Positions 1,332 through 26,558 of a stretch of DNA of 40,452 nucleotides are shown here, one piece after another. Source of the DNA: Trinickia mobilis (GTDB lineage Bacteria; Pseudomonadota; Gammaproteobacteria; Burkholderiales; Burkholderiaceae); assembly GCF_017315705.1 (NCBI RefSeq), contig NZ_JAFLRF010000027.1, positions 1 through 40,452 on the forward strand, given 5' to 3'. Position numbers and translations under genes: made by a program. Under the pieces are notes generated by a model that saw only the letters and a program-made list of their open reading frames with translations, made no database searches and was not told the origin of the DNA. The first letter of the stretch is position 1. Every line of letters begins with the position of its first letter.

Positions 1332-1727
1332 TTATACGTAGTGCCCTGAACGCTCCAGAACCTCGATTTTGTAGCCATCCGGGTCCTGAATAAAGAAGAA
1401 CCGGGCGAGCATCTCTTCGCCGCGTTTGAATTCCTTCACAGGCGTCGGATGGACACCGAGCCGCGTCATGCGCTCATGCTCATTTTCAAGCTCTGGAACT
1501 GCCACGGCGATGTGGCCATAGCCGTCGCCGTGCGTGTATGCCGGCTCGCGGCCTTTATTCCAGGTCAACTCAATCTCGAAGTCGTTCTCTTCATTTCGAA
1601 GATAAACAAGCGAGAAGTCCGGAAAATCAAGGCGGTGACTTGTCGACAGCCCGAGCGCGTCCTTGTAGAACTGCAGCGAACGGTCAAGGTCGTGAACCCG
1701 CACCATGGAGTGAATGATTTTCGCCAA
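1332..1727 (-). CDS. gloA: Glyoxalase I (lactoylglutathione lyase)
   Basis: This 131-residue protein of the vicinal-oxygen-chelate fold matches the usual length of bacterial GloA. It isomerises the methylglyoxal-glutathione hemithioacetal to S-lactoylglutathione in the cytosol. The four metal ligands can be placed at His6, Glu53 (IELTWN), His72 (YGHIAV) and Glu122 (YKIEVLE), with the conserved DPDGYKIE segment before the last. The start is TTG at 1727, preceded by AAGGAAG. The open frame continues upstream but would overlap the SDR gene and has no ribosome site. It is the last gene of the leftward operon. Its presence behind a Dke1-like cupin fits methylglyoxal being made by this pathway. Confidence 0.88.
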   Translation of the reverse strand: MAKIIHSMVRVHDLDRSLQFYKDALGLSTSHRLDFPDFSLVYLRNEENDFEIELTWNKGREPAYTHGDGYGHIAVAVPELENEHERMTRLGVHPTPVKEFKRGEEMLARFFFIQDPDGYKIEVLERSGHYV

Positions 1728-1788
1728 TTTGTACTTCCTTGTTGCGTAATGCGCGACGCAGCTGCCACGCTGCGCCGCGAGCATCGAA

Positions 1789-2586
1789 TTAAACCGAGAA
1801 GCGACAAAGCGTCTCGCCGCCATCAATGCGGATGAGGTCACCGTGGATGTAGCTCGACTCGTCCGACGCAAGGAATATCGCGAGATTTGCGATGTCTTCA
1901 ACTTCGCCCCAGCGTTTCAGCGGAATTGCTTCGGTGAACACCTTGTCGAAGTCCTTGTCGTCAAACAGCGCACGAGTCAGGGACGTTTTCGCGTACGTCG
2001 GGCAGATGCCGTTCACCCGGATTTTGTCGCGCCCGTACTCGATTGCGAGGCAGCGCGTGAGATTCGCCGCCGCTCCCTTCGATATGTTGTAGACGGACTG
2101 TTTGGGGTGGCCCTGCAATCCAGCTGTTGAGACAATGTTGACGATATTTCCGCCTCGACCTTGTTTCAGAAACGTCTTGATTGCTTCCTGGCAACCGAAC
2201 CACGTGCCTTTTACGTTCACGTCAAAGCAGGCGTCGAGGTCTTCGACCGAGAACTCGTGGGCCAGTTTTCCGGCCCGATAGATACCGGCGTTATTTACCA
2301 TGACGTCGAGACCGCCGTAGAGCCGGACCGTTTCTTCGACCAGGTTTGCGACCTGGTCCTGTTTGGTCACGTCGCACGCGACATACTGAGCCTTGCCCCC
2401 TGCCTCGTTGATGGCTGCCGCTGTCATCAACTGTGGATTGCCTTCGAAGCCGCCCTGATTCGGCGCTTCGTGTACATCACTGACCACCACGCTAGCGCCT
2501 TCGGCGGCATACGCCATGGCGATGCCACGTCCGAACCCCGAGCTCGCGCCGGTGATAATGGCAACCTTACCTTTGAGCCTATCCAT
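1789..2586 (-). CDS. SDR-family NAD(P)-dependent oxidoreductase (first of two)
   Basis: This 265-residue classical short-chain dehydrogenase has a cofactor loop TGASSGFG (about residues 12-19), NNAG at 98-101, and the catalytic triad Ser153, Tyr166 and Lys170. The start is ATG behind AGGAGG. Between beta-2 and beta-3 it carries a long insertion containing QGGFE, which the neighbouring SDR shares as QGGYE. The two are therefore likely paralogues of one subfamily. It sits 57 bp after the other SDR and 61 bp before gloA in the leftward operon. The substrate is unknown. A reduction or oxidation of a keto or hydroxy intermediate of the diketone pathway is an inference from context. Confidence 0.88.
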   Translation of the reverse strand: MDRLKGKVAIITGASSGFGRGIAMAYAAEGASVVVSDVHEAPNQGGFEGNPQLMTAAAINEAGGKAQYVACDVTKQDQVANLVEETVRLYGGLDVMVNNAGIYRAGKLAHEFSVEDLDACFDVNVKGTWFGCQEAIKTFLKQGRGGNIVNIVSTAGLQGHPKQSVYNISKGAAANLTRCLAIEYGRDKIRVNGICPTYAKTSLTRALFDDKDFDKVFTEAIPLKRWGEVEDIANLAIFLASDESSYIHGDLIRIDGGETLCRFSV

Positions 2587-2643
2587 GAACCCTCCTGTTA
2601 GATGTGGTGGCCGGCCGCAAAAGGCTGGCCAGCCCCGTGGTGC

Positions 2644-3471
2644 TTAGCGAGCCGTGAAGGCACCGTCGACGGTCAGCATCGAGCCCGTCATCCACTCCGC
2701 GTCGTCAGACGCGAGAAACAGCACGGCCTTCGCGACATCCTCTGCAGTGCCGACCCGTGGCCACGGAGTGAGGTCGTGAAGCAGCTTGTTGGTATCGTCG
2801 TTTTCCAGGAACGAGCGCACCATCGCGGTAGCTAGAAATCCTGGACAGACAGCGTTCACGTTGATTCGCTCGGGCGCGAAGTCGAGCGCAAGTTCGCGAG
2901 TCAGATTGACGACCGCTCCCTTTGAAGCACAGTAGGCCGGTTCAAGTGCGAGGCCGACCAGGCCGCCGATAGACGCGATGTTGACGACGCGGCCACGGAC
3001 CTTCGCACCTGTCGACGTCGTCAAGGGCTCTTGCTTCATGAATTGCGTGATAGCGTACTTGCAGCCCAGCCAGACGCCCTTTGCGTTCACGTTCATCGTG
3101 AAGTCGTATTGTTCTTCGGTCTCGTCGATGATGTTGTGCAGGCCGGTGAAGACGCCCGCGTTATTGACGATGATGTCCAGACGGCCAAACGTCGATACCG
3201 CGTGGTCAACGACTTTCTGAACGTCGCTGGCTTTGCTTGCGTCCGCCGCGATGAACGTCGCCTTTCCACCTTCCTGCGTGATGACGGCGTCGGTATCGGT
3301 TTCGATATCTTTCTCGTAGCCACCCTGCAGCGCCGACTTCTTCAGGTCGGTGCAGACGATGTGGGCACCCTCTCGCGCCAGTGCCAGAGCGATGGCGCGT
3401 CCGTTACCAGAACTGGAGCCGGTTACTACAGCGATACGATTCTCAAGTTTCCGTGTCATGACTTTTCTCAT
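2644..3471 (-). CDS. SDR-family NAD(P)-dependent oxidoreductase (second of two)
   Basis: This classical SDR of 275 residues (271 if the second ATG, at 3459, is used) has TGSSSGNG (residues 17-24), NNAG at 103-106, and the triad Ser167, Tyr180 and Lys184. It carries the same QGGYE-containing insertion after beta-2 as the downstream SDR. The start is ambiguous. The first ATG at 3471 has no ribosome site, whereas the ATG at 3459 has GAGAAAAG just ahead. It lies between the SnoaL-like gene and the other SDR, all leftward, which suggests one transcript. The substrate cannot be told from sequence. Confidence 0.87.
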   Translation of the reverse strand: MRKVMTRKLENRIAVVTGSSSGNGRAIALALAREGAHIVCTDLKKSALQGGYEKDIETDTDAVITQEGGKATFIAADASKASDVQKVVDHAVSTFGRLDIIVNNAGVFTGLHNIIDETEEQYDFTMNVNAKGVWLGCKYAITQFMKQEPLTTSTGAKVRGRVVNIASIGGLVGLALEPAYCASKGAVVNLTRELALDFAPERINVNAVCPGFLATAMVRSFLENDDTNKLLHDLTPWPRVGTAEDVAKAVLFLASDDAEWMTGSMLTVDGAFTAR

Positions 3472-3538
3472 TGTATAGTACGTCTAAATAGCATCACGGC
3501 GCCATGTTGTGACTGCGCGTTGTGCTCTGACAGGTCCG

Positions 3539-3895
3539 CTACGCCGAAAACGACGTGAACGTTTGAACCGCTATCTTTCCGTCTTTAACGAACAGCGTGT
3601 CCGTTGCGAGGGTGACCCACGGCTTCGCCTCCCATGCGAGATAGGCGACTTCGCCAGCCGTGCCGCGGCTCGTGATTTTGAACGCCGGCCAGAAGGCGGG
3701 GTCGGCGCCATCCAGGAATGCCTTGAAGAAGCCCGTTATCTCGTCCCGACCACGGAAGGTCTTGTCGGGCGTAATGAGTGTCGAGCCATCGTCATAGTCC
3801 TTGAGAATCTCATCGAGGCCTTGGGCAAATGCACCGAGATGATGGTCGAGGACCTGCTTGGTTGCTGCTTCTGCCTGTTCAGAGGAATTTGACAT
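3539..3895 (-). CDS. SnoaL-like / NTF2-fold protein
   Basis: This 118-residue protein shows the pattern of the SnoaL-like (NTF2) superfamily. It has an N-terminal amphipathic helix, the segment RGRDEITGFFKAFL typical of the cone-forming helices, then beta strands ending in VKDGKIAVQTF. Members are small isomerases, hydratases or ligand binders. No catalytic residue set can be assigned here. It lies between the cupin and the SDR pair in the leftward operon, with 77 bp to the cupin. A role in processing or protecting a reactive carbonyl intermediate is only contextual inference. Confidence 0.75.
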   Translation of the reverse strand: MSNSSEQAEAATKQVLDHHLGAFAQGLDEILKDYDDGSTLITPDKTFRGRDEITGFFKAFLDGADPAFWPAFKITSRGTAGEVAYLAWEAKPWVTLATDTLFVKDGKIAVQTFTSFSA

Positions 3896-3972
3896 GGTGG
3901 TTATCCATCAAGAGTCAGGTGGGAGCCGGCAATGCTGGCCATTGCCGGCGCGTGGCGAGGCCGTGAGCCTGT

Positions 3973-4413
3973 TCACCCAGCGTATGCACGCTGCGCTTCG
4001 TCCCATGTCACAACTACGATTGGCGTCCCGTCTTCCTTGATGAAAGCGAGCGGTCCGAGGAAGGTCATATAGAACTCGCTATCGACCGGGAAGTTGGTCT
4101 TGTCGTGCCGCGCATTGGCGGACTCGTAGCCATATGCCGGCGCAACAACCGTGTCACCGCCCTGTTCGCGACCACCACGAACATCCATTCGCCCCTTCGT
4201 CAGGAGGTATTCGCCCGGCCCGACGTGAAAGTGCGCGTTGAAGGACGAACCGGCAGGGCAATCAAAAATTGCGGTCCAAGCGCCCATTTCGGGGGAGGCG
4301 TGGAGCATCTTCCAGCGAATTCCTCCCTGCGAGAGAGCATCTGGGAAACGCTTCCACGGAATCTCATCGATTTGTACCGCTTCTTCGCGAACCTTTGGCT
4401 TGATTTCCATCAT
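3973..4413 (-). CDS. Acetylacetone dioxygenase-like cupin (Dke1 family)
   Basis: This single-domain cupin of 146 residues starts at one of two tandem ATGs (4413 or 4410) behind AGGAGA. The predicted iron ligands are His61, His63 and His103. They fall one position before the three-His site I recall for Acinetobacter Dke1 (62, 64, 104). Arg79, Glu97 and Thr106 likewise align with Dke1 active-site residues. The segments SWTAIF/AWTAIF, CPAGSSF, GPGEY, LTKGRM and FYMTFLGPL are Dke1-like. Dke1 splits 2,4-pentanedione with O2 into methylglyoxal and acetate. It is the promoter-proximal gene of an operon ending in glyoxalase I, which fits that product. Other beta-dicarbonyl substrates are possible. 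Confidence 0.75.
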   Translation of the reverse strand: MMEIKPKVREEAVQIDEIPWKRFPDALSQGGIRWKMLHASPEMGAWTAIFDCPAGSSFNAHFHVGPGEYLLTKGRMDVRGGREQGGDTVVAPAYGYESANARHDKTNFPVDSEFYMTFLGPLAFIKEDGTPIVVVTWDEAQRAYAG

Positions 4414-4762
4414 CGTCTCCTGATTTCGCCGACCCGAATTCAAGTTCGGCAAGGTTTGTGGATGAAACAACGATATCGCAGGGAGCAGGACGTAGTTTGC
4501 ACGACAGTGCAAATCGAGTTGCATGCCAGTGCATTGGCAGGTTAGCGAGTATGTAGCAGCTGTTTAACGGTAGGCGGCCATCACATCGTGTCTTCTTATC
4601 AACCCATCGAGCAGCGCAGAACTAACGGGATTATTCGCCTCGCCCTAGCAACCCGTCATCAAACATCGCGCGTCAACAGACAATTAGGGCGCTACCCGCC
4701 CGCCGGGGGAACTGCCCTCGCAGGCAATTCGGCGTGCGCTGTAGGGCAACTGCTGCACGCAG
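4414..4762. other. Regulatory region between the diketone operon and the gloB remnant
   Basis: No gene is supported here. The stretch holds the 5' leader and tandem operator of the leftward operon (4497-4533). From about 4560 onward no clear promoter or reading frame could be identified. Confidence 0.6.
4497..4533. promoter_or_regulatory. Tandem direct-repeat operator upstream of the cupin operon
   Basis: TTGCACGACAGTGCA at 4497-4511 recurs as TTGCATGCCAGTGCA at 4519-4533, with 13 of 15 bases equal and a 22-bp period (two helical turns). Each unit is itself a near-palindrome (TGCA...TGCA), and the first extends to TTTGCAC/GTGCAAA. It lies about 85-120 bp upstream of the cupin start. Paired direct repeats of this spacing are typical of AraC-family activators, and an AraC-family gene lies at the far end of the operon. 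Confidence 0.65.
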
Positions 4763-5165
4763 ATGCTGGGCTATCAGTACGTTCCTATTCCCGCATTCCG
4801 CGAAACTACATCTGGCTCGTGACCGACGGGCGTCACGCGCTCGTTGTTGACCCGGGCGATCCTCGCCTGTCAAAGCATATTGTGCTCAGCACGGGTTGTT
4901 GATTACCGCGATCTTGCTCACCCATCACCACGACGACCATGTCGGCGGTGTCGCCGAACTTTTGTCGGACGGTCCTGTAGCGGCCGATGTCGCCGTATAC
5001 GGTCCAGCCAGCGAGCCCATCAAGTATGTGACCGTGACGCTGCATGGCGGTGCCGAGGTCGCAATGAGCGCGCCGAATTTCCACTGTCAGATAAAGGACG
5101 ACCCCGGCCACACCGCCGGACATATCGCGTACTTTGGTCGTCGACTGCGGCGACCCGCACCGGTG
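4763..5165 (+). pseudogene. gloB: Glyoxalase II (hydroxyacylglutathione hydrolase) remnant
   Basis: The beginning of a GloB-type metallo-beta-lactamase can be read across three frames. ATG at 4763 gives YQYVPIPAFRE. After a one-base loss near 4803 come NYIWLVTDGRHA and VVDPGD. A second shift near 4885-4895 restores ITAILLTHHHDDHVGGVAEL, the Zn-binding THxHxDH motif. Then comes DDPGHTAGHIAYFG, and a third shift leaves a VVDCGD-like scrap of the FCGDTLF motif. Everything after about residue 135 of a 260-residue family is missing. It therefore cannot encode an active enzyme. It lies next to a dld fragment, and an intact gloA is close by. Confidence 0.85.
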
Positions 5166-5229
5166 ATTGAGCGTCGATGCGTCGCCGCAGTGTTCACAGA
5201 GTGTAGATTCCAGACGTAGAGGTAAGAAA

Positions 5230-5544
5230 GTGAGTGATGCCGTGCATGATGCAGCGGCGGCAAGGTCGACTGTCCGCACTGACAAACGTGACCTGCTAGC
5301 AAATCTGGTCGCGGTCGTCGGGCGTGCGAACGTGCTTACTGGAGACCGCGCGACCCGTCGCTACCGCACAGGTTTCCGGTTCGGTACGGGTAGCGCTCTC
5401 GCGGTCGTCAAGCCCGGCTCGCTCGTGGAACAGTGGAAAGTATTGCAAGCGTGCATTGCAGCTACCTTTGCATGGATGCCGCGGACCGCGATGATTTCCA
5501 CCTCGCGGTCGGCAAGGAGTGCCTGCGTCGACGGACTGCAATGA
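5230..5544 (+). pseudogene. dld: 5' fragment of quinone-dependent D-lactate dehydrogenase
   Basis: A GTG start behind AGAGGTAAGAAA opens a frame with LVAVVGRANVL, RYRTGFRFGTG, ALAVVKPGSLVEQW and KVLQACIAA. This is the characteristic N-terminus of the Dld family of FAD-linked D-lactate dehydrogenases, just before the FAD-binding glycine-rich loop. Recognisable homology stops near 5465, and the remaining 26 residues do not match. The family is about 570 residues, so more than 85% is lost. With the gloB remnant it would have completed methylglyoxal to pyruvate conversion. Confidence 0.82.
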
Positions 5545-10650: not shown

Positions 10651-11940
10651 ATGGCCCCACACCTGACGTTCGCGCCAGAAGGCGTAGTCCATCCGGGCGC
10701 AATCAACCCGGAAGATATTTCCGCCGTATCGAAACCCATCGCAGTCTCCGGGACCGAAATTCTTTCGGTCAGGAATCTGTCGAAAATCTTCGGGCCGAAG
10801 CCCGAGCGCGCCGCTGAACTGGTGAGGCGAGGACTTGGCCGGAACGAAATTTTCGAGCAGACCGGCAACATGGTCGCAGTCAATGACGTCAGTCTCAGCG
10901 TTAAGGCAGGTGAGATTTTCGTCGTCATGGGGCTCTCGGGTTCCGGCAAGTCGACGCTTGTCCGTTTGCTCAATCGGCTGATTGAACCGACGTCCGGGCA
11001 GGTCATCCTCGAAGGCCGCGATATTGCTCCCATGTCCACATCGGAATTGCGCGAAGTCCGCCGCAGGAAGATGGCGATGGTATTTCAGTCGTTCGCGCTT
11101 CTGCCGAACCGCACGGTACTCGACAACATTGCCTACGGACTGGAAGTTGCTGGCGAGAAGAAAGCCGAGCGCTACGAAATCGCGCGCTCTGCACTGACGC
11201 GAGTCGGTCTGGGCTCGTATGAAAAGCTGCTTCCCAGCGAGCTGTCGGGCGGTATGCAGCAGCGAGTCGGTCTTGCCCGTGCGCTGGCGGTGAATCCCTC
11301 GGTACTTCTGATGGACGAAGCATTCTCCGCTCTTGACCCTCTGATTCGGTTCGAAATGCAGACCGAACTGCTCCGGTTGCAGAAGGAGGAGCAGCGGACC
11401 ATTGTCTTCATTTCACACGACATCGAAGAAGCTATCAAGATTGGCGGGCGAATCGGCATCATGAAGGATGGTTGCCTGATTCAGGTCGGCACACCTGCGG
11501 AGCTTATCCAGTCACCGGCCGACAAGTACGTGCGGGACTTCTTCCGCAATGTCGACGTGTCCCGCTTTCTCAAGGCTTCCAGCCTCATGACGACGGCAGA
11601 CCGGGGGCTGATTACCTGCGACGTCGGCTCACCCTGTGAGCGTTACCTCAATCAGCTCATCGATAGTGGCGTCGAATGCGGCTATGTATGCGACGAATCA
11701 GGGCACTACCAAGGTTGTGTTACACCGGCATCGCTGCACAAGATGGGCACGCGCCCCCTCCGGGACGCATTGCTCAGGGATGTGAATGCCGTTTCGTTGG
11801 ACGCCGATTTGCATGAACTTGCTTCCATCGCGCTGAGCCAGGAACACGACGTACCCGTCACGGACACGACCGGAAAACTAGCAGGCGTGGTGTCCTGTCG
11901 GACGATACTCAAACAGGTTATGGAACGGAGGGCAGCATGA
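10651..11940 (+). CDS. proV: Glycine betaine/proline-type ABC transporter, ATP-binding subunit
   Basis: This 429-residue protein has the ProV/OpuAA plan. An N-terminal regulatory extension includes FGPKPERAAELVRRG. The ATPase has Walker A GLSGSGKST, Q-loop FQSFALLP, signature LSGGMQQRVGLARAL, Walker B VLLMDEAFSALD and switch His in FISHDIEEA. A C-terminal region of two CBS-type segments spans about residues 300-425. It powers import of quaternary ammonium osmolytes. The start has only a weak GGGATGACAG ahead. Its stop overlaps the permease start by 4 bp (ATGA), so the two are translationally coupled. Confidence 0.95.
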   Translation: MAPHLTFAPEGVVHPGAINPEDISAVSKPIAVSGTEILSVRNLSKIFGPKPERAAELVRRGLGRNEIFEQTGNMVAVNDVSLSVKAGEIFVVMGLSGSGKSTLVRLLNRLIEPTSGQVILEGRDIAPMSTSELREVRRRKMAMVFQSFALLPNRTVLDNIAYGLEVAGEKKAERYEIARSALTRVGLGSYEKLLPSELSGGMQQRVGLARALAVNPSVLLMDEAFSALDPLIRFEMQTELLRLQKEEQRTIVFISHDIEEAIKIGGRIGIMKDGCLIQVGTPAELIQSPADKYVRDFFRNVDVSRFLKASSLMTTADRGLITCDVGSPCERYLNQLIDSGVECGYVCDESGHYQGCVTPASLHKMGTRPLRDALLRDVNAVSLDADLHELASIALSQEHDVPVTDTTGKLAGVVSCRTILKQVMERRAA

Positions 11941-12827
11941 ATTCGTCAATTATCGGCAAGCTGGCAGAAGACGCCGTCAACTTTCTCTTCCAGCATTTCC
12001 GGGGCGGCTTCGACGCTTTCTCTGCCGCGCTAGGTGCGGTGGTCAAGCTGCTAGAGGACGGGCTGGGCGCCACTCCATTCGCCGCCATGCTCGTCATCTT
12101 CGTGACCTTTGCTTTATGGCGGCGTGGCATCGTGTTTTCGGTGTTCGTGGGCGGTGCGCTTCTGGCTATCCATTACATGGGGCTGTGGGCTCAAACCGTC
12201 TCCACGCTCGCGCTCGTTATTGCCGCAACATTCTTCAGTCTGGTTGTTGGTGTGCCACTGGGCATCTGGGGGGCGAGGAACAAGCGGGTGGAAATGATTT
12301 TGCGCTCGCTGCTCGATTTCATGCAGACCATGCCGGCATTTGTTTATCTGATTCCGGCCGTCATCCTGTTCGGATTGGGCCGCGTTCCAGCCGTGATTGC
12401 AACCGTCGTCTTTGCCATGCCGCCCGTCGTACGCCTCACCACCTTGGGTATCCGGCAGGTGCGCGAAGAGTTGCTGGAAGCGGGCCGCTCGTTTGGCAGC
12501 ACAGACCTGCAACTTCTCTGGAAAATACAGTTGCCGAATGCCCTGCCTTCCATCATGGCAGGTGTGAACCAGACCATCATGATGGCGCTTTCGATGGTTG
12601 TAATCGCATCGATGATTGGCGCCGGCGGGCTGGGTGAGTATGTGCTGAGCGGCATCCAGCGGCTCGACATCGGGATTGGCTTCGAAGGTGGGCTGGGCGT
12701 CGTATTGCTTGCCATCGTGCTTGACCGCCTCACGGAAAGCTTCGGCATGAAGGCGAAGAAGGTAAAACGCAGCGTTAGAACCGGCAAGGCTGGCCCAGAC
12801 GCTACCGTGCGCACCCGACGGACATAA
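11937..12827 (+). CDS. proW: Glycine betaine/proline-type ABC transporter, permease
   Basis: This 296-residue inner-membrane permease has several hydrophobic segments and the BPD_transp_1 EAA loop (EELLEAGRSFGSTDLQLLWKIQLP region) that contacts ProV. The SMVVIASMIGAGGLGEYVL motif is typical of ProW/OpuAB. The N-terminus is cytoplasmic and shorter than E. coli ProW's periplasmic extension. The start overlaps proV's stop. A stable hairpin at 12860-12887 separates it from the binding-protein gene. Confidence 0.94.
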   Translation: MNSSIIGKLAEDAVNFLFQHFRGGFDAFSAALGAVVKLLEDGLGATPFAAMLVIFVTFALWRRGIVFSVFVGGALLAIHYMGLWAQTVSTLALVIAATFFSLVVGVPLGIWGARNKRVEMILRSLLDFMQTMPAFVYLIPAVILFGLGRVPAVIATVVFAMPPVVRLTTLGIRQVREELLEAGRSFGSTDLQLLWKIQLPNALPSIMAGVNQTIMMALSMVVIASMIGAGGLGEYVLSGIQRLDIGIGFEGGLGVVLLAIVLDRLTESFGMKAKKVKRSVRTGKAGPDATVRTRRT

Positions 12828-12859
12828 AAGCGACCGCGCAGATAACCGTCAACTAGTGG

Positions 12860-12887
12860 TGATTGCGCCGCAGACGCGGTGCAATCA
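12860..12887 (+). promoter_or_regulatory. Intercistronic hairpin upstream of the binding-protein gene
   Basis: TGATTGCGCCGC (12860-12871) pairs with GCGGTGCAATCA (12876-12887) over 12 bp, with one G-U pair and loop AGAC. No T tract follows, so it is not a simple terminator. It is more likely an mRNA-stability or processing element between proW and proX. Confidence 0.55.
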
Positions 12888-12980
12888 GAAAAAGCAGCAC
12901 AGAGTTTGGAGACCGGAGCCGCTACATTGGCCGAGGCTGGCGAATTTCCAATGATTTTCATATTCAGATAGGAGTGCTAC

Positions 12981-13862
12981 ATGAAAACCAATCTGTTCAA
13001 GTCGCTTGTTGTGAAACTGGCGGTATCGACGGTCGTTGCCATGGGTGTCGGCGTTGGGTCTGCTGTCGCGGCAGAATCTATCAAGATGGCAGTAACTAAC
13101 TGGGCAGACGTTCTGGCCGTTGCTAACGTGGCCAAATACGTGCTCGAGACCAACCTCCAGCAGCCGGTCAAGTTTGTGCAGGCCGATATTGGTATTCAGT
13201 ATCAAGGTGTCGCACGCGGCGACCTTGACATCATGGTGGGCGGGTGGCTGCCGGTTACCCACGCAGCGTACTACGCGAAGTACAAGAACGATATGGATGA
13301 TGTCGGCATCATCTACACCGGCGGCAAGAACGGCTGGGCAGTGCCGGCATACGTTCCCGAGTCAGAACTGTCATCGATTTCCGACCTCAACAAGCCGGAC
13401 GTCAAGAGCAAGTTGAACGGGACCATCGACGGTATCGAGCCGGGAGGCGGTCTGATGCAGGCATCTGAAAAAACCATCAAGGCCTATGACCTGAACGGGT
13501 ACAACCTGCAGTCATCGAGCGAGGCCGGCATGCTCGCAGGCGTTTCGCGAGCTTATCAATCAAAGCAATGGGTTGTTGCCACGGTCTGGAGCCCCCACTG
13601 GCTCTTCCAGAAGTGGCAGATGCGCTACCTCAAGGACCCCAAGGGCACGTTGGGCGGCGAGGAGCAGGTTCATGCCTTTGCATCCAAACAGTTCGCAACC
13701 AAGTTTCCCCGGGCGGACGTTTTCTTCAAGCATTTCAAGCTGACGCTCGCTGACGTCGAGTCCATCGAGTACGAAGGCAACGCCACTAACGATTACGCGA
13801 CAGCAGCGAAGAAATTCGTCGACGCGCATCCGGAAAAGTTAAAGGTCTGGTTGCAGCAATAA
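12981..13862 (+). CDS. proX: Glycine betaine-type ABC transporter substrate-binding protein
   Basis: This 293-residue periplasmic protein has a Sec signal peptide ([13 protein letters not shown], core, AVA-AES cleavage near residue 31) and no lipobox cysteine. The mature part is an OpuAC domain. Trp and Tyr residues at [20 protein letters not shown] and [10 protein letters not shown] are candidates for the aromatic cage around a trimethylammonium or dimethylsulfonium head group. Start ATG follows TAGGAGTGCTAC. It is third in the proVWX order, flanked by hairpins, and probably expressed at higher level than the permease. Confidence 0.94.
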
Positions 13863-13872
13863 GTCGAAGGTG

Positions 13873-13915
13873 GGCTCATTGTGAACGGGTGGGTATTTTT
13901 TGTTCACAGGGAGCC
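13873..13915 (+). promoter_or_regulatory. Extended hairpin after proX
   Basis: GGCTC (13873-13877) and TGTGAAC (13880-13886) pair with GTTCACA (13902-13908) and GAGCC (13911-13915), interrupted by a 2x2 internal loop. The T run lies in the apical loop rather than after the stem, so a processing or stabilising 3' hairpin is more likely than a terminator. Confidence 0.5.
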
Positions 13916-14020
13916 GAGCATCGTCCATTGCCTGAAGGGCAATCGAGAAGCCGGCCCCACATCGATAGATTTTGCAGTCTTGCAAGACATGCTTTACATG
14001 ATTACTTCCGGAGTGACCAC

Positions 14021-15316
14021 TTGAACGAGAACTCGCGCTTTTTTGCTGAAACGCTTCAGAGCCGTGACCCCGTTATCGCATCAGAGATTGCGTTGGAGTT
14101 GCGCCGCCAGCAAACGCAGATTGAACTGATTGCTTCCGAAAACATCGTCTCGGCGGCGGTGATGGAAGCGCAAGGTACCGTGCTGACCAACAAATACGCC
14201 GAGGGGTACCCTTCGAAGCGTTATTACGGCGGTTGCGAGCATGTGGATAGGGTCGAAGCGCTTGCGATTGACCGCGTGAAAGCCCTGTTCGAAGCTGAAT
14301 TCGCCAACGTGCAGCCGCATTCAGGAGCGCAGGCGAACGGCGCAGTGATGCTCGCGCTCTTGAAGCCGGGCGAGACGGTCATGGGAATGGCGCTTGATGC
14401 TGGAGGTCACCTGACGCACGGTGCACGTCCCGCCCTCTCTGGAAAGTGGTTCAACGCTATCCAGTACGGCGTAAGTCCCGAAACGTACCGCATTGACTAC
14501 GAGCAGGTCCGTCGGCTCGCCGAGGAGCATCGTCCCAAGCTCATCATCGCGGGCTATTCGGCCTATCCGCGTGCTCTGGATTTTGCCGCGTTCCGCGACA
14601 TTGCGGATAGCGTAGGTGCCTTGTTGATGGTTGACATGGCACACATCGCGGGCATTGTCGCGGCAGGCAGACACGAGAACCCTGTGCCGTTCGCCGATGT
14701 GGTGACGTCCACCACCCACAAGACGCTTCGTGGCCCACGCGGTGGCTTCATCCTGACCAACAACGGCGACATTGCGAAGAAAATCAATTCGGCCGTGTTC
14801 CCGGGTCTGCAGGGTGGCCCACTCATGCACGTCATCGCTGGTAAAGCGGTTGCATTTGGAGAAGCGCTTCGTCCGGAGTTCACCGTGTATATCGACCAGG
14901 TGCTGCGTAATGCGCAGGCGCTTGGCAACATCCTGAAGTCGGGCGGCTTGAACCTCGTCACTGGCGGCACCGACAACCATCTGCTGCTGGTCGATTTGCG
15001 CTCGAAGCGACTGACCGGTACCCAGGCTGAGAGAGCGCTGGAGCGTGCGGGCATCACCTGCAACAAGAACGGTATCCCGTTCGATACCGAAAACCCAACA
15101 GTGACTTCCGGAATCCGCCTTGGCACTCCCGCAGGAACCACGCGAGGCTTCGGCACCGCTCAGTTCGAGCAGGTTGGACACATGATTCTGGAAGTCCTGT
15201 CTGCGCTCGAAACACAGCCCGACGGCGACGAACAGTTCGAGCGTGCAGTGCGTAGCCGGGTGCGAGACCTCTGCGGCCAGTTCCCGATTTACTCACACGC
15301 GGATGCCCTTGCTTGA
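14021..15316 (+). CDS. glyA: Serine hydroxymethyltransferase
   Basis: This PLP enzyme interconverts glycine plus 5,10-methylene-THF with serine plus THF. The protein is 431 residues, near the family's 415-425, and the start is TTG at 14021 behind CGGAG. The internal aldimine Lys is residue 234 in [48 protein letters not shown] and MVDMAHIAG are all present. A second glyA inside a betaine cluster is expected, because stepwise N-demethylation yields glycine and C1 units that this enzyme recycles. It lies between proX and the DapA-family gene. Confidence 0.95.
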
Positions 15317-15391
15317 ACTACAAGGACGTTTAACGACTACTTCTACGAGTCGTTGAAGAAATTTGGCTTCTTTTATTGAGAGAGAACGACG

Positions 15392-16279
15392 ATGAGCTTC
15401 GAGGGAGTACATACACCGCTGGTCACCCCGTTCAAGCCGGACGGCGAAATTGACCATGATTTGCTGGGCAAGCACGCCGCTAATCTCGCAGGACGTGTTT
15501 CGGGTCTCGGGGTCGGCGGGACCACGGGCGAATACTATGCGCTGAGTTTCGACGAGCGGGTTCAGACGTTTAATACCGTAGCCGAAGCGGCAGGCGGCAA
15601 GACGTATCTTACCGCCGGCATCAATGCGACCACGACGAAAGAAGTGATTCGCCTGGGGCACGAGGCGAAACATGCCGGCCTGTCGGCCTTGCTGGTTGCC
15701 GCTCCGTACTATGCCCAACCCACGCAGGAAGAGCTTCTGACCCATCTGCTGAAGGTGGACGACAACCTCGACATGCCCATCATGCTGTACAACTTCCCGG
15801 CACGCACCGGGACGGAAATCAGTGATGGCGTTCTGGAAAAGCTGCTTGAGCGGCCGAACTTCATTGCGATGAAGGAAAGCACCGGCGACATTTCGCGTCT
15901 GCATCACCTTGCAACACACTTCCGCGACAAGCTGGTGCTGAGCTGCGGGATGGATGACCAGGCGCTCGAGTTCTTCGTGTGGGGTGCAAAGAGCTGGGTC
16001 GGGGGTGCTTCCAACTTCTTGCCGGAAGCGCACACCGCGCTCTTCGATGCGTGCGTCAAGCGAGGTGACTTCGATACCGGCCGCAAGCTGATGGCGCAAC
16101 TGCTGCCAGTGCTCGAACTGCTGGAACGCAGCGGCAAATTCATTCAATACGTCCGGTACGGCTGTGAGCTTGCGGGCACGCCTGTCGGTGTTGCCCGGGC
16201 GCCGCTCGGCACGCTCACTGAAGAAGAGCGCAGCACGTTTGCCAGGCTCGTTCAACCTTTGTTGTGCAACGCGCAGTAA
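15392..16279 (+). CDS. DapA-family (dihydrodipicolinate synthase/N-acetylneuraminate lyase) protein
   Basis: This 295-residue TIM-barrel aldolase has Schiff-base Lys161 (IAMKEST), Tyr133 in YNFPARTG, Arg138, and GGTTGEYYAL for the TT dyad. Numbering equals E. coli DapA. The family condenses or cleaves pyruvate-type 2-oxo acids. A housekeeping DapA is unlikely to sit in a betaine cluster. A catabolic lyase or deaminase, as in hydroxyproline pathways where a DapA-family enzyme precedes an aldehyde dehydrogenase, is a reasonable alternative. Conserved Arg138 argues for an acidic second substrate. Start ATG follows GAGAGAGAACGACG. The next gene begins 5 bp after its stop. Confidence 0.85.
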   Translation: MSFEGVHTPLVTPFKPDGEIDHDLLGKHAANLAGRVSGLGVGGTTGEYYALSFDERVQTFNTVAEAAGGKTYLTAGINATTTKEVIRLGHEAKHAGLSALLVAAPYYAQPTQEELLTHLLKVDDNLDMPIMLYNFPARTGTEISDGVLEKLLERPNFIAMKESTGDISRLHHLATHFRDKLVLSCGMDDQALEFFVWGAKSWVGGASNFLPEAHTALFDACVKRGDFDTGRKLMAQLLPVLELLERSGKFIQYVRYGCELAGTPVGVARAPLGTLTEEERSTFARLVQPLLCNAQ

Positions 16280-16284
16280 CTTGC

Positions 16285-17616
16285 ATGGCCTCGAAACTGG
16301 AATTCGTGCGGTTTCCCGCTCCGGACGGTGTGAACGGATGGTGGGAAACCCTGCCACCGCCTCCGCCCGCCGATATGGTGTCTTCCGAACGACATTATGA
16401 CTGGGTCGTTGTCGGGGGCGGTATTACGGGGCTGTGTGCTGCCCGACGCCTGGCTGAACTTGCACCTGATGCCTCGATAGCACTGGTCGAGGCGGACCGA
16501 ATCGGCCGCACCACAGCCGGACGAAATTCCGGATTCTTTGTCGATTTGCCACACGACATAAGCAGTGAAAGCTACTCGCGCAGTGTGGAAGCGGACAAGG
16601 CAGATGTCCGGTTTCAACGCCACGGCATCGACTACGTGCGTTCAGTGGTAAAGCGGCACAGCATCGACTGCGACTGGCGGGACGACGGCAAGTTTCATGC
16701 TTCGGTGAACAAGAAGGGGCACGCAGGACTTGCTCACTTCGCCGAAGGACTCGCTCGCATCGACGAAGCCTTTGAGTGGCTTGACGAAGCTGCAATCGCG
16801 AATGTCACCGGCACGAGCTTCTATCAGGGCGCGCTCTTTACGCCAGGATGCAGCACGGTCCATCCGGCAGCCCTCATGCGTGGTCTTGCTGCGACCTTGC
16901 CGCAGAATGTGAAGGTCTTCGAGCTTAGCGCGGTAAAGGGAATTGAGGACCAGGGTCCAAACAGGATTCTGACCTTTACTAGCGGCAAGATTGCGGCGAA
17001 GCGCGTGATTCTATGCACAAATGCCTATGCGGCGACATTCGGGGGACATCCGAACGGCCTGCTGCCCGTGTACACGTTTGCATCGATGACCCGCGTGATG
17101 AGTCCGGATGAAGTACGCCGGCTCGGCGGCACGCGGTCGTGGGCACTGATTCCGGCCGACCCGATGGGCTCGACCGTTCGACGTCTGATTACCGACCGCA
17201 TCTGCGTTCGCAACCACTTCGCGTTTCGACCCAGTCTCGAAGTGTCCCAGGCCGACCTGGCGAAGGCAAAGAGTCTGCATCAACGGTCGTTCGACCGACG
17301 CTTTCCGATGCTGAAAGACGTCGAGCTCGAATACACGTGGGGCGGCCCTTTGTGTCTGTCTGTCAACAACGGGGCACTTTTTGGGCGCCGTGACGATGGT
17401 GTGTTTGAAGCCGTCGGATGCAATGGCCTTGGCCTAAGCAGAGGGTCGGCTTCAGGGAAGCTAATCGCTGAATATGCGCTCGGTCACGACAACGACCTCA
17501 TTCGCCAGCTTTTGAGTCAGCCGCATCCACGCTCGCTGCCGGTCCGTCCGATTGCCGACGTCGCTGTGTCTGCGGCTATATGGGTCAAGGAATTTTCGGC
17601 TGGGGCCGAGCTATAA
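16285..17616 (+). CDS. FAD-dependent amine oxidoreductase (DAO family, PuuB-like)
   Basis: This 443-residue protein has an N-terminal extension containing GWWETLPPPPP, followed by an FAD-binding Rossmann fold (VVVGGGITGLCAARRL, residues 41-56). GRTTAGRNSGFF matches the PuuB/DadA-like substrate region, and a C-terminal CNGLGLSRG closes the FAD domain. The family oxidises secondary or primary amines to imines and aldehydes, for example N-methyl amino acids or gamma-glutamylputrescine. ATG at 16285 is chosen because it follows the DapA stop by 5 bp. A GTG at 16264 would overlap. The aldehyde dehydrogenase follows 17 bp later, as PuuB-PuuC pairs do. Confidence 0.85.
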   Translation: MASKLEFVRFPAPDGVNGWWETLPPPPPADMVSSERHYDWVVVGGGITGLCAARRLAELAPDASIALVEADRIGRTTAGRNSGFFVDLPHDISSESYSRSVEADKADVRFQRHGIDYVRSVVKRHSIDCDWRDDGKFHASVNKKGHAGLAHFAEGLARIDEAFEWLDEAAIANVTGTSFYQGALFTPGCSTVHPAALMRGLAATLPQNVKVFELSAVKGIEDQGPNRILTFTSGKIAAKRVILCTNAYAATFGGHPNGLLPVYTFASMTRVMSPDEVRRLGGTRSWALIPADPMGSTVRRLITDRICVRNHFAFRPSLEVSQADLAKAKSLHQRSFDRRFPMLKDVELEYTWGGPLCLSVNNGALFGRRDDGVFEAVGCNGLGLSRGSASGKLIAEYALGHDNDLIRQLLSQPHPRSLPVRPIADVAVSAAIWVKEFSAGAEL

Positions 17617-17633
17617 ATTCGTAAGGACATGAC

Positions 17634-19127
17634 ATGACGACCTATCAAGAATGGAAACACAAAGCAAAAGCCTTGCCACTCGACGGAAGAGCGTTCATCG
17701 CCGGACAACGATGTCCGGCAGCCTCGAACGAGACCTTCCAGACCCTGAATCCTTCGACGGGAAAACTACTGGCAGATATTGCAAAGTGCGATACGAGAGA
17801 CATCGACCGGGCGGTCGTGGCGGCGAGAGATGCGTTCGAGTCCGGTGTATGGTCAAAGGCAGCACCGGCCCAGCGAAAAGCAGTGCTTTTGAGGCTGGCG
17901 CAACTTATTGAGGACAACGCCGAGGAACTGGCGCTCCTCGAAGCGCTCGAGGCGGGCAAGCCAATCAGTGAGTGCATGGCGCTGGACATCCCCGAGTCGG
18001 CGGCCTGTATCCGCTGGCATGCGGAGGTCACCGACAAGCGATACGACGCCCTGTCGCCGTCGGGCGCGAGCGTCGTGAGCATGATTACCCGAGAGCCGAT
18101 TGGTGTCGTGGGCGCAATCCTGCCGTGGAACTTCCCGGCGCTCATGCTTGCCTGGAAAATCGGCCCGGCGCTTTCTGTTGGCAACAGTGTCATTGTGAAA
18201 CCTGCCGAGCAGACGTCGCTTTCGACGCTGCGCATCGCCGACCTGGCAATGGAAGCCGGCGTGCCCGCAGGCGTTTTCAGTGTCGTTACCGGCTATGGGG
18301 AAAGCGCGGGCCAGGCCTTGGGCCGACATTCCGACGTCGACATGGTTGCTTTCACGGGCTCGACGGAAACCGGAAAACGATTCCTCCATTACTCGGCAGA
18401 CACGAACCTGAAGCGGGTCTTGCTGGAATGTGGCGGCAAGAACCCTCAAGTCGTGCTTCCCGACGTCGCGAATCTTGACGCTGTCGCAGAGCAAGCTGTC
18501 GCTGCCGCATTCTGGAACATGGGAGAGAACTGCAGCGCGGGCTCTCGTATTCTGGTCCCCTCGACCACGAAGGATAAGTTGCTCCAAAAGGTTCAGGCAG
18601 TTCTGGAAGGATGGAAAACGGGCGACCCGCTGGACCCTGAGGTCAAGCTCGGTTCTCTGATTGAAGAGAAGCACTTTGAAAAGGTACTCGCCCACATCGA
18701 GAAAGCTAAGGCGGAAGGAGCACGCCTGGTGTGCGGCGGCAAGGCCACGCGCACCGAAACGGGGGGATGGTTTGTCGAGCCGACCATCTTCGACAACGTC
18801 ACCCCGGAGATGAGTATTGCCCGCGAGGAAGTATTTGGTCCTGTCGTCTGCTTTATCGAATACGCCGATGTCGATGAGGCTGTCCGGATTGCCAACGACA
18901 CCTGCTACGGACTGGCCGCATCGCTATGGACTGACAACGTCAATAACGCCCACAAGATCGCCGCCCGAATCCGGGCGGGTACGGTGACGGTGAACTGCTT
19001 CGGCGAGGGCGACCTGACGACGCCGTTCGGCGGCTTCAGGCAATCGGGCTTCGGTGGCCGTGACAAATCGGTCTACGCCCACGACCAGTATTGTGAGCTG
19101 AAGACCACGTGGCTGAAGCTCGACTAA
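17634..19127 (+). CDS. NAD(P)-dependent aldehyde dehydrogenase (PuuC-like)
   Basis: This 497-residue ALDH has catalytic Cys300 (MGENCSAGSR), general-base Glu265 (LLECGGKNP), PWNFPALMLAWK for the cofactor entry, and FTGSTETGK. It most resembles PuuC-type dehydrogenases that oxidise amino-aldehydes. Start ATG at 17634 has AAGGA 8 bp ahead. It is in one transcription unit with the FAD oxidase, so it likely oxidises the aldehyde that enzyme produces. Betaine aldehyde or 2-oxoglutarate semialdehyde substrates cannot be excluded. Confidence 0.92.
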   Translation: MTTYQEWKHKAKALPLDGRAFIAGQRCPAASNETFQTLNPSTGKLLADIAKCDTRDIDRAVVAARDAFESGVWSKAAPAQRKAVLLRLAQLIEDNAEELALLEALEAGKPISECMALDIPESAACIRWHAEVTDKRYDALSPSGASVVSMITREPIGVVGAILPWNFPALMLAWKIGPALSVGNSVIVKPAEQTSLSTLRIADLAMEAGVPAGVFSVVTGYGESAGQALGRHSDVDMVAFTGSTETGKRFLHYSADTNLKRVLLECGGKNPQVVLPDVANLDAVAEQAVAAAFWNMGENCSAGSRILVPSTTKDKLLQKVQAVLEGWKTGDPLDPEVKLGSLIEEKHFEKVLAHIEKAKAEGARLVCGGKATRTETGGWFVEPTIFDNVTPEMSIAREEVFGPVVCFIEYADVDEAVRIANDTCYGLAASLWTDNVNNAHKIAARIRAGTVTVNCFGEGDLTTPFGGFRQSGFGGRDKSVYAHDQYCELKTTWLKLD

Positions 19128-19215
19128 ATAATTCGACCCAATCAGGGGGCGGGCTATTGACCCTTCGGCCGCGGCTCCGCTTGACGATGTCTGCTTTAAT
19201 CACATGTGAGGCCAA

Positions 19216-19986
19216 ATGCGACTTGGATTCATCGGGACCGGCACCATCACGCAGGCAGTCGTTACCGGCTTGCTTCGATTTGGCGTTGCGTTCGACCACA
19301 TTTCACTGTCGCCCCGCAATGCAGAGACTGCCGCTGGGCTCGCTGCTCTTGCCGGACGGGTGCGGGTCTGCTCAAACAATCAGGAAGTGCTGGAGACGTC
19401 CGACATTGTTTGTCTTGCAGTCGTACCGCAATTTGCTACTGACGTTTTGGGCGAGCTTCGTTTTGACTCACGCCATCATGTCATCAGCTTCATCGCGGGG
19501 ATTTCAATAGATGAAGTGCACCGGCTTGTCGGCATAGTAAGCAAGGTCGTTCGCGCCATACCGTTGCCGGCAGTCGCCGAGGGCATGGGAAGTACGGCAA
19601 TTTGTCCTGCAGACCGTGTTGCGAAGTCTCTGTTCTCGGCGTTGGGTGAGGCGGTTGAAGTCGACGACGAGGGCAAGTTCGGCGCACTTTCGGCCGTGAC
19701 CGCGACCATGGCGAGCTTCTTTGCGGTGCTGGAAGCCCAGGCGTCATGGCTCGTCCGGCAAGGGCTCGATTACGATGCCGCCCGCTCATTTCTGTCGGGC
19801 TACTGTGTCGGCCTCGCGCACGAAACGACCAGAACCGGGAAGCCGTTCACAGAGCTGATTGAGCATTGCATGACACCGGGTGGCATCAACGAACAGGTTC
19901 ACGGGGAGCTCTCGAAGCGCGGTACCTATTCACAATTCGGCGACGCCCTCGACCGAGTGTTGATGAGGATTGAAGGTCGCGTGTAG
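19216..19986 (+). CDS. ProC-like pyrroline-5-carboxylate/imine reductase
   Basis: This 256-residue protein has the ProC Rossmann start MRLGFIGTGTIT, then VVPQFATDVL, RAIPLPAVAEG (ProC usually RVMPNTP) and TPGGINEQVH in place of ProC's TPGGTTEA loop. The altered loops suggest a related imine reductase or dehydrogenase rather than housekeeping ProC. Start ATG follows GTGAGGCCAA. The gap to the ALDH gene is 88 bp, so it may still be in the same operon. Reduction of a cyclic imine produced during betaine demethylation is possible. Confidence 0.8.
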   Translation: MRLGFIGTGTITQAVVTGLLRFGVAFDHISLSPRNAETAAGLAALAGRVRVCSNNQEVLETSDIVCLAVVPQFATDVLGELRFDSRHHVISFIAGISIDEVHRLVGIVSKVVRAIPLPAVAEGMGSTAICPADRVAKSLFSALGEAVEVDDEGKFGALSAVTATMASFFAVLEAQASWLVRQGLDYDAARSFLSGYCVGLAHETTRTGKPFTELIEHCMTPGGINEQVHGELSKRGTYSQFGDALDRVLMRIEGRV

Positions 19987-20268
19987 CAGGCGGCGCGGGG
20001 ATGGGCTCGTTAACCTATGCTATTTGGGCCGCGCATCGCTCAGGCAACGGCTGCGGGCACGGCGCTACGCGCCCGCGAGAGGTGGCGGAGGCGACCCGGC
20101 CTCGGGTGAACCTCTCTTGCCAGTGAGCCGCGGGAATCGCAAACTATTTTTGCCTGAGGTGGTCTCGTCTCATGGCGCGACAGCCGCCGCTGCCGAGGGG
20201 TGTGGTTGCGGCGACCGTCAGGTAGTCCTCGGACTGAATCGCACGCTTCCGCCTGAAAGGTGACAACG

Positions 20269-21270
20269 ATGCAAAAGAAGCAGTTATTTGCTGACAGACT
20301 CCTCGCCCAGATGCCGTCGTTAAGGGCGCTGAGATGCTTTGTCACTGCGGCCCGCTACGAAAGCTTCACTCAGGCGGCGGAGGTGCTGTGCGTAACCCAG
20401 GCGGCAATCAGCAGGCAAATCAAGGAACTTGAGGATTCCCTTGATGTAGCCCTATTTGAGCGCACCGGGAGGCACATTGCGCTCACTGACGCTGGGCGCA
20501 TTCTCTACAACGCCTCATACCTCTCGATTATGAATATTGCGGAGGCGGCCGAGGCGGTGCGTCGGTCCGACAAGCATGCGCTGACTATTTGCGTCTCGCA
20601 TACCTTCTCGGCCCTGTGGCTGTCGTTCAGGTTACCGTTGTTTCGGAAGAGGTTTCCGGATATCAGACTGCACGTCATGGTGACGGAGCATTTCATGGAG
20701 TTGGACGAACTTTTGCAACCCGACGTCATCATCACCAAGAATCCGCCGCGCGAGCCGGAGTACGAAATTGAGCCGCTCTTCCACGACGTGGTCTATCCCG
20801 TCTGCAGTCAGTTGTTCTACGAGCGTCATTTCCACGGCAGGTCATTGAAGCCATTGGACCTGCTGTCACACCCCACGCTGAACCTCTCCTTGTTGGGGCG
20901 CGCCCAGGTTTGCGAGCATGTTGATTGGCGAGTGTGGCGAAACTGGTTTCAGCAAGGTGATGGGTCTGACAGACTGGTCGAAAACGAACACCTGGAAAGC
21001 AACGACTATCGACTCCTGGTATCACAGGCCGAAGCGGGTGAAGGGACCTTACTTGGCTGGCATCACCTCGTATATCGCCAGGTCGAACAGGGCCGCCTGG
21101 TTCGACCGGTGCAGGATGCGCTCGAATTCCACGACCGTCACCACTATCTGATAACGCACAAGAACGCAAAGCTTCGACCCGAGTATCTACAGTTCCGTGA
21201 ATGGCTCGGTGAGGAAGTAGGCGCGATGATGCGCGAATGGCGAGGCGTGGAAGCCGAAACGACCAAATGA
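20269..21270 (+). CDS. LysR-family transcriptional regulator
   Basis: This 333-residue protein has an N-terminal winged helix-turn-helix (about residues 15-75: LRALRCFVTAARYESFTQAA, VTQAAISRQIKELE) followed by a two-lobed periplasmic-binding-like effector domain. The GcvA-like VTQAAISRQIK signature is conserved. Start ATG at 20269 follows AAAGGTGACAACG. A GTG 9 bp upstream is in frame but less well placed. It lies between the metabolic genes and the GATase-AraC regulator and probably controls one flanking operon. Confidence 0.9.
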   Translation: MQKKQLFADRLLAQMPSLRALRCFVTAARYESFTQAAEVLCVTQAAISRQIKELEDSLDVALFERTGRHIALTDAGRILYNASYLSIMNIAEAAEAVRRSDKHALTICVSHTFSALWLSFRLPLFRKRFPDIRLHVMVTEHFMELDELLQPDVIITKNPPREPEYEIEPLFHDVVYPVCSQLFYERHFHGRSLKPLDLLSHPTLNLSLLGRAQVCEHVDWRVWRNWFQQGDGSDRLVENEHLESNDYRLLVSQAEAGEGTLLGWHHLVYRQVEQGRLVRPVQDALEFHDRHHYLITHKNAKLRPEYLQFREWLGEEVGAMMREWRGVEAETTK

Positions 21271-21361
21271 TTTTTGCTGTCATCAGTTCGGAGAGCGTGA
21301 GCAGGTCCGTCGAAGGACGCTAGTCCTGGCCGATTCTTAAAGCGTTAATGCAGGTAGTCTC

Positions 21362-22396: not shown

Positions 22397-22519
22397 TGGG
22401 CACGCAATTGGCCCATTGGCGTTAAATGTAAGTGCCTCGACGGGGAAAGCGGCAAGTGGCTTGACACGCGACAAACCAAGGGTTTCCTCTTTTTAACTAG
22501 ACAACGGACACGACAGAAA

Positions 22520-22924: not shown

Positions 22925-22948
22925 TGGTCACAACCCGGGACCGAACCA

Positions 22949-26545: not shown

Positions 26546-26558
26546 GCAGAGGTTGGTC

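Follow-up and report, generated by a model that had tools for sequence, protein, structure and literature searches.

Dke1 of Acinetobacter johnsonii (EC 1.13.11.50, PDB 3bal) cleaves acetylacetone into acetate and methylglyoxal, and the methylglyoxal is converted to lactate by glyoxalase (PMC7226712). Acetylacetone cleavage has also been stated for 'a homologous Burkhoderia xenovorans protein' (PMC4019311); when run in the synthetic (reverse) direction, P_Dke1 of LB400 yielded no product (PMC7226712). A glyoxalase I gene inside a carbonyl-induced operon is known from Pseudomonas aeruginosa, where arqI-gloA2 consists of two genes, involves an ABM-domain protein and is specific to glyoxal (PMC12274486). 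The locus described here, from Trinickia mobilis, likewise has a glyoxalase I-like gene in an operon, and it resembles A. johnsonii Dke1, compared by enzyme and reactions, in its cupin (58% identity, the same metal and pocket residues and the same predicted reactions). It differs in that the cupin gene is embedded in an operon and putative regulon with short-chain dehydrogenases (SDRs), a SnoaL-like protein, an AraC-type regulator and an operator. In the literature searched, with subscription journals largely outside it, we found no description of such an operon or regulon, which is weak evidence of absence; the statement of the first-pass annotation that no operon of this content had been described holds to that extent, although the reaction chain was already known biochemically in Acinetobacter (PMC7226712).

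The window, i.e. the whole stretch of 40,452 nucleotides analysed (NZ_JAFLRF010000027.1, coordinates on the forward strand), contains a leftward operon of five genes, those of a Dke1-like cupin, predicted to be an Fe(II) three-histidine beta-diketone dioxygenase (3973–4413, minus strand), a SnoaL-like protein with an NTF2/ketosteroid-isomerase (KSI) fold (3539–3895, minus), two SDRs sharing 38% identity and both matching adh_short_C2 (SDR1, 2644–3471, minus; SDR2, 1789–2586, minus) and a GloA-like VOC protein (1332–1727, minus, with a TTG start taken from the alignment with relatives). The gene of the presumed regulator, an AraC-type protein with AraC_binding_2 and HTH_18 domains (289–1266, plus), adjoins the operon and is convergent with it. 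Across the promoter, opposite the operon, there are truncated relics of gloB (glyoxalase II; 4763–5135, plus, frameshifted) and of dld (FAD D-lactate dehydrogenase; 5224–5490, plus, N-terminal part only). Open reading frames and domains thus confirmed the gene order and orientation first read from the DNA, with the cupin at the start of the leftward operon and glyoxalase I at its end, and bore out the two SDRs and the SnoaL-like protein, the latter by a SnoaL_2 match below its cut-off (E 5.7e-4).

The cupin belongs to the family expected of a Dke1-type enzyme (Cupin_7, PF12973, E 1.5e-30), aligns with Dke1 at E 3.3e-54 and is 72% identical to PDB 2o1q. Eleven positions in the active-site region are identical in all 89 rows of the alignment, Dke1 included, and the invariant positions comprise His61, His63, His103, Glu97, Arg79, Tyr69, Phe58, Phe114, Phe118 and Thr106, residues of the metal site and pocket. 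The three-histidine metal site and the pocket residues of the Dke1 type are present in the window cupin, for which O2-dependent cleavage of acetylacetone is predicted. The cupin is 97% identical to a P. xenovorans LB400 protein (locus L009), apparently the B. xenovorans protein that was assayed. The LB400 locus is similar to that of the window also in SnoaL (76% identity), SDR1 (93%), SDR2 (94%) and AraC (90%), and has the operator, but differs in that no gloA, gloB or dld was found within the 16.4 kb inspected.

The last gene of the operon encodes a protein matching Pfam Glyoxalase (E 4.3e-16), which scores under both curated glyoxalase I cut-offs (134.3 against 165 for NF050074, 84.0 against 120 for TIGR00068), as do the only two other short GloA proteins scanned (L035 and L038); for this reason we call it GloA-like. 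Its residues His6, Glu53, His72 and Glu122, aligned with PDB 4mtq and with the known metal ligands of glyoxalase I, are invariant in all 19 short GloA proteins of at least 120 residues, so that the alignment gives the window protein the His/Glu/His/Glu ligand set of a glyoxalase I, and we infer glyoxalase activity for it.

In 32 of the 87 loci compared, an intact or broken glyoxalase I gene is found no more than 4 kb from the cupin gene (of 143 cupin loci in a wider listing, 63 lie outside the analysis). These matches number 34, two loci giving two pieces each, against none in 571 kb farther off, and they are of two types, a short GloA (22 loci) and a long one (10 loci), the six long proteins scanned all passing TIGR00068. 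The other 55 loci, some of whose stretches are cut short at contig ends, showed no glyoxalase I within that distance; 44 of these also have no SnoaL gene, and many fall in two large clades. Among the 25 Burkholderiaceae loci gloA is open and full-length in 14, broken in three (L003, L017 and L023) and absent from eight; consistent lack of gloA in homologous loci, which would have counted against the initial proposal, was thus not observed.

The relics across the promoter match the GSH_gloB model (E 4.3e-19, 4896–5216) and a D-lactate dehydrogenase model (E 5e-20, 5167–5541), as the remnants of these enzymes noted there at the outset should. The gloB relic is spread over three frames and stops at about residue 129 of 271. 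Of the roughly 600 residues of D-lactate dehydrogenase, only about 16–104 are covered by the dld relic, and the window holds fragments only, with no intact copy of either gene. Their ancestry appears mixed. At the DNA level each relic scores best against its housekeeping counterpart, gloB or dld, in the same genome; at the protein level, by contrast, the operator-linked dld of P. rhynchosiae outscores the housekeeping gene against the dld relic (94.0 against 86.3 bits). In the comparison of cupin neighbourhoods in other Burkholderiaceae, complete sets (cupin, SnoaL, SDR1, SDR2, gloA, gloB, dld and AraC) were found on one island in P. phenoliruptrix pSYM (L004) and in P. rhynchosiae (L025). A locus of Marinobacter salinexigens has long gloA, gloB, AraC, cupin, SnoaL and SDR2. 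The two complete sets support the claim that a single island once encoded the route from diketone to pyruvate, a claim qualified by the mixed ancestry of the relics. The content of the island differs between loci, any of the SDRs, gloA, gloB and dld being present in some and missing from others, and IS elements sit in L004.

We identified a putative operator, a 37-bp direct repeat of two 15-bp half-sites, TGCRCTNNCNKNCAA, with a 22-bp period, located 83 bp upstream of the cupin start codon (4497–4533, minus strand). It is present upstream of the cupin in all 25 Burkholderiaceae loci, with scores of 19–22 of 22, the motif having been derived from these same upstream regions. Upstream regions of 11 further cupin genes were scored, and nine of them lack it (13–17), among them that of L029, a Burkholderiales bin whose cupin belongs to the same clade as those of the Burkholderiaceae loci. 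A second copy in the window, with one mismatch (4713–4749, plus), precedes the gloB relic, as does a copy in L014, and further copies were found before gloB and gloB2 (L004), gloB (L025), dld (L004 and L025), the AraC gene (L130 and L008) and tautomerase-like genes (six loci), all these non-cupin sites scoring 18–20. The housekeeping gloA, gloB and dld of the same genome score 12–13 and so lack it. The pattern gave 32 matches against two control matches in 18 cupin-containing genomes or records, and perfect matches occur in two of 150 family genomes, of which only that of T. mobilis has the cupin. One operator thus seems to precede separate transcription units while sparing the housekeeping copies, and this distribution, over cupin, gloB, dld, regulator and tautomerase-like genes, leads us to read the system as a beta-diketone catabolic regulon. 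XylS-type sites have the form TGCA-N6-GGNTA; no match was found in the upstream regions, and the direct repeat seen there was taken instead. Four matches far from any cupin, among the 18 genomes or records, were put aside as probable chance or unexplained: L167 and L168, before a long reading frame taken by eye for glycogen phosphorylase, L169, before another gene, and one at G398:C1:3618940.

The window regulator matches the FeaR model below its cut-off, and 23 of the 25 Burkholderiaceae stretches contain a close relative of it, which in L021 and L022 lies more than 6 kb away; the stretches of L015 and L018 carry the operator and lack a regulator of this kind. Upstream of the window AraC gene, where 288 bp are available, no good operator was seen (best score 15 of 22). 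The nearest solved structures of SDR1 and SDR2 are a mixed set of SDRs and point to no substrate. For the tautomerase-like protein, one of the two members scanned reached 20.3 bits in Pfam Tautomerase (cut-off 22) and the other had no match; these results, with an NCBIfam E of 0.0044, a PDB E of 0.74 and a low-confidence fold model (pLDDT 60.9), warrant only that name. For another operator-linked protein (361/385 residues), neither Pfam nor NCBIfam gave a match at the thresholds applied.

We consider it likely, with good confidence, that this locus serves as a cassette for beta-diketone catabolism. The coupling of diketone cleavage to the glyoxalase pathway, proposed in the first-pass annotation, is backed by the intact versions in L004 and L025, the two linked glyoxalase I types and the shared operator. 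Several observations count against the cassette: the sub-threshold scores of the short GloA proteins, the lack of gloA at the LB400 locus, the 55 loci with no glyoxalase I nearby, the loss of intact gloB and dld from the window, the derivation of the motif from the regions on which it was counted together with its absence from nine other cupin upstream regions, the poor operator score before the window AraC gene, the missing or distant AraC in four loci, and the failure of P_Dke1 in the synthetic direction. The cupin, with Fe(II) held by three histidines, would use O2 to split a beta-diketone, yielding a carboxylate together with an alpha-ketoaldehyde; from acetylacetone, a possible natural substrate, these would be acetate and methylglyoxal. 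The GloA-like enzyme would dispose of the toxic ketoaldehyde as a glutathione thioester, and GloB and D-lactate dehydrogenase, whose genes formerly lay on the other side of the promoter, would complete the route to pyruvate, the housekeeping gloB and dld presumably substituting for the relics in this genome. The SDRs most likely oxidize hydroxyketones or diols to the diketone (for SDR2, hydroxyketone or alcohol oxidation is presumed), the SnoaL-like protein most likely acts on the enol form of the substrate, and the AraC-type regulator, probably induced by substrate or product, may activate the route through the direct-repeat operator. It is a more daring suggestion, and a rather doubtful one, that a KSI-fold or tautomerase-like protein provides the enol(ate) needed by the dioxygenase. 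Beyond the window, it is reasonably probable that Paraburkholderia, Caballeronia and relatives share a dedicated, horizontally shuffled beta-diketone regulon. In it, AraC and the 22-bp-period operator together would govern the cleavage of the diketone, both glyoxalases (I and II), D-lactate dehydrogenase, and SnoaL/KSI-fold and tautomerase-like accessories. Such joint control would wire diketone use to the removal of the methylglyoxal it produces.

The same genes could be those of a 2-oxoaldehyde stress operon, whose regulator would sense glyoxal or methylglyoxal, with gloA, gloB and dld serving detoxification and the cupin and SDRs acting on other reactive carbonyls instead of supporting growth on a diketone. 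PDB 4mtq, which we take to be P. aeruginosa GloA2, is among the structural-database relatives of the window GloA, and dld and gloB are among the operator-linked genes, both in favour of such a role, as is the glyoxal induction of arqI-gloA2 (PMC12274486). We find it unlikely, since a cupin producing methylglyoxal from acetylacetone would have a pure detoxification operon make its own toxin, and since SnoaL adjoins the cupin in all 25 Burkholderiaceae loci, gloA being dispensed with in eight. The variability of SDRs, gloA, gloB and dld, the IS elements of L004 and the presence of the cupin in only 13 of 398 family genomes might instead suggest that unrelated genes came together by chance on a mobile island; with two types of glyoxalase I beside the cupin and a single operator shared by the cupin, gloB, dld and regulator genes, this reading is already disfavoured and appears very improbable.

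The catabolic reading is compatible with a refinement to which we give slightly less than an even chance, namely that the substrate is a longer or aryl beta-diketone, of plant or microbial origin, rather than acetylacetone. Cleavage would then yield a larger 2-oxoaldehyde, to which the VOC protein, as a diverged glyoxalase, would be adapted. The divergence of the window GloA from both curated models speaks for it, as does the wide variety of beta-diketones accepted by Dke1 (PMC4019311), whereas the presence of usual-type dld and gloB in L004 and L025 suits D-lactate, and thereby methylglyoxal, and argues against a larger aldehyde.

If the catabolic reading is true, Dke1, so far a curiosity known as a lone enzyme and mainly studied for its iron chemistry, would acquire a genetically defined catabolic route with regulator and operator. 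Such a route would clearly exemplify a pathway tied to the removal of the toxic compound that it generates. It would also offer concrete, testable functions for the SnoaL-like family and for GloA-like proteins under current cut-offs, and possibly a diketone- or ketoaldehyde-responsive switch. A second copy of the locus lies on another contig of the same genome (C80), with cupin (90% identity), SnoaL (79%), AraC and a frameshifted gloA, and without SDRs.

On the minus strand of the window, which is contig C44 (1-40452) of an 8.0 Mb genome, we identified a putative beta-diketone-cleaving cassette composed of a Dke1-like cupin (4413-3973), a SnoaL-like protein (3895-3539), two short-chain dehydrogenases (SDR1, 3471-2644; SDR2, 2586-1789) and a GloA-like VOC protein (1727-1332), with an AraC-type regulator (289-1266) convergent with this operon. 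The cupin shares 58% identity with Dke1 (3bal) and 72% with 2o1q, and its three metal histidines and eight more pocket-region positions are invariant in all 89 rows of the alignment; the roles we give these residues are partly assumed. The closest row (97%) is the cupin of Paraburkholderia xenovorans LB400, encoded on chromosome NC_007951.1 (L009). Acetylacetone cleavage was demonstrated for a homologous B. xenovorans protein, according to a review citing FEBS J 276:5983 (PMC4019311), and the LB400 gene on NC_007951.1 was named as an acetylacetone-cleaving enzyme in a 2020 paper, although in the reverse direction the enzyme yielded no product there (PMC7226712). The cupin is present in 13 of 398 family genomes, including the genome carrying the window.

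The first-pass annotation placed remnants of gloB and dld across the promoter, and these were borne out: on the plus strand we found gloB pieces spread over three frames (about 4763-5135), together with an N-terminal fragment of dld (about 5224-5490). Intact housekeeping gloB and dld are located on contigs C2 and C1 of the same genome and, among the five loci compared, are the nearest to the relics by DNA score (72% over 155 bp for gloB and 77% over 115 bp for dld). By protein score the own gloB is again the nearest (56% versus 39-47%), while the dld relic scores higher with the dld of P. rhynchosiae (94.0 bits) than with the own dld (86.3). Contig C80 of this genome contains a second copy of the cassette (L003:9772-12268), with a cupin 90% identical, SnoaL, AraC and the operator described below; its gloA is split by a frameshift and the SDRs are absent. 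A third cupin was not found in a search of the genome.

Linkage of the cupin to glyoxalase I was investigated in 87 loci (the best 80 of 143 cupin loci, the window, L003, L004, L005, L008, L128 and L130). In 32 of these, a complete or broken glyoxalase I gene is found no more than 4 kb from the cupin; 22 loci have a short GloA and 10 a long type (all six of the long ones scanned are above the TIGR00068 cut-off), and on the starred branches of the cupin tree each kind requires at least five label changes. We observed 34 matches in 641 kb near the cupin versus none in 571 kb farther off (binomial p 4e-10, a value that ignores shared ancestry). No glyoxalase I was found within 4 kb in 55 of the 87, an upper figure because contig ends cut some stretches, and SnoaL is also missing in 44 of these 55.

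Within the 25 Burkholderiaceae loci (the window, L003, L004, L008-L028 and L130) SnoaL is always present, and gloA is open and full-length in 14, broken in three (L003, L017 and L023) and absent from eight, the LB400 locus among them. The proposed search for the cupin beside gloA, gloB and dld in other Burkholderiaceae yielded full sets in P. phenoliruptrix plasmid pSYM (L004), typed conjugative, and in P. rhynchosiae (L025). The former contains dld, gloB, AraC, gloA, both SDRs, SnoaL, cupin, a third SDR and a second gloB; the latter has the same gene set, but a single gloB. Marinobacter salinexigens carries a long gloA, gloB (GloB scoring 179.9 against a cut-off of 200.8), AraC, cupin, SnoaL and SDR2.

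A predicted operator, modelled from the regions 5' of the cupin, is formed by two 15-bp half-sites TGCRCTNNCNKNCAA with a 22-bp period (21 in L014); the window copies are at 4497-4533 and 4713-4749. It scores 19-22 of 22 in all 25 Burkholderiaceae loci and, since the motif was derived from these same regions, the tests that count lie elsewhere. Only 0.28% of 720 base shuffles (20 x 36 regions) reach 17, with a maximum of 18. Eleven other cupin upstream regions score 20 (Azospirillum, L061), 18 (Pacificispira, L031) and 13-17 (the remaining nine, including L029, a Burkholderiales bin of the same cupin clade), and L128, a family genome scanned apart, scores 19. The operator also precedes both gloB genes of pSYM and the gloB of P. 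rhynchosiae, dld in these two loci, the gloB relics of the window and L014, AraC in L130 and L008, and, in six of the loci that carry it, a 167-aa tautomerase-like gene (L014:11369-11872; also in L008, L015, L019, L021, L022, L026 and L029, in the last directly before the cupin). Another copy precedes a gene for a 361/385-aa protein without Pfam match in L004 (13922-15079) and L025 (5705-6790). The own housekeeping gloB, dld and gloA lack the operator (13, 13 and 12). A score of 13 was obtained for the LysR-side dld of L023 and one of 15 for the 288 bp available upstream of the window AraC. In L015 and L018 the operator is present and a close AraC relative was not found in the stretch.

Three sites reach 18 in the 733 kb of loci L033-L088. 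Allowing one mismatch, the pattern has 32 matches in 18 cupin-bearing genomes or records versus two for the reversed control, 28 of the 32 within 8 kb of the cupin by reading of coordinates; the own genome has three such places, each at one of the two cassettes, and zero-mismatch matches occur in two of 150 family genomes. The second of these genomes is a congener without cupin, in which a 99-bp operator/promoter (L172:5092-5190) is 86% identical to that of L003, with no route genes found in the surrounding 11 kb; this bare operator is the scar of a lost cassette.

We propose that, in the presence of the substrate or the ketoaldehyde, the AraC-type regulator would activate all operator-linked units, the cupin would cleave the diketone, and GloA, GloB and Dld would convert methylglyoxal to pyruvate. 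The SDRs would act earlier, probably producing the diketone from hydroxyketones. Relatives of SDR1-SDR2 (63-72% identity) occur paired on B. multivorans and Rhodococcus plasmids (L006, L007). In B. multivorans the pair adjoins genes for a flavin oxidoreductase and an alpha/beta hydrolase; in R. jostii RHA1 such genes lie about 6 kb away (within about 7 kb). The SnoaL-like protein was confidently modelled with an NTF2 fold (pLDDT 94.8); its structural neighbours have the ketosteroid-isomerase fold, the top match being a SnoaL-like protein without assigned function, and 26 columns are invariant among 21 sequences. An enol-handling role is our guess.

The aldehyde may differ from methylglyoxal, since the window GloA falls below both curated cut-offs and a glyoxal-specific GloA2 operon exists (PMC12274486). 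The absence of gloA from the LB400 locus and of a close AraC from the L015 and L018 stretches also counts against the proposed scheme. Acetylacetone is described as not naturally occurring (PMC7226712); in nature, the cassette is therefore likely to act on a different beta-diketone, or else it serves a synthetic one. The same paper indicates that the diketone-to-glyoxalase reactions were already known from Acinetobacter; a description of the operon, its spread or its operator was not found in the literature searched.

Four cupin-bearing metagenome bins (L054, L071, L073 and L078) are titled Klebsiella pneumoniae or Rickettsia typhi and their cupins group in the tree with rows of very different origin; these titles are probably wrong. 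Elsewhere in the window (10651-29061) we noticed by eye apparent genes for an ABC transporter, serine hydroxymethyltransferase, a Rieske dioxygenase, a reductase and an aldehyde dehydrogenase, together resembling a locus for the catabolism of betaine or proline betaine.
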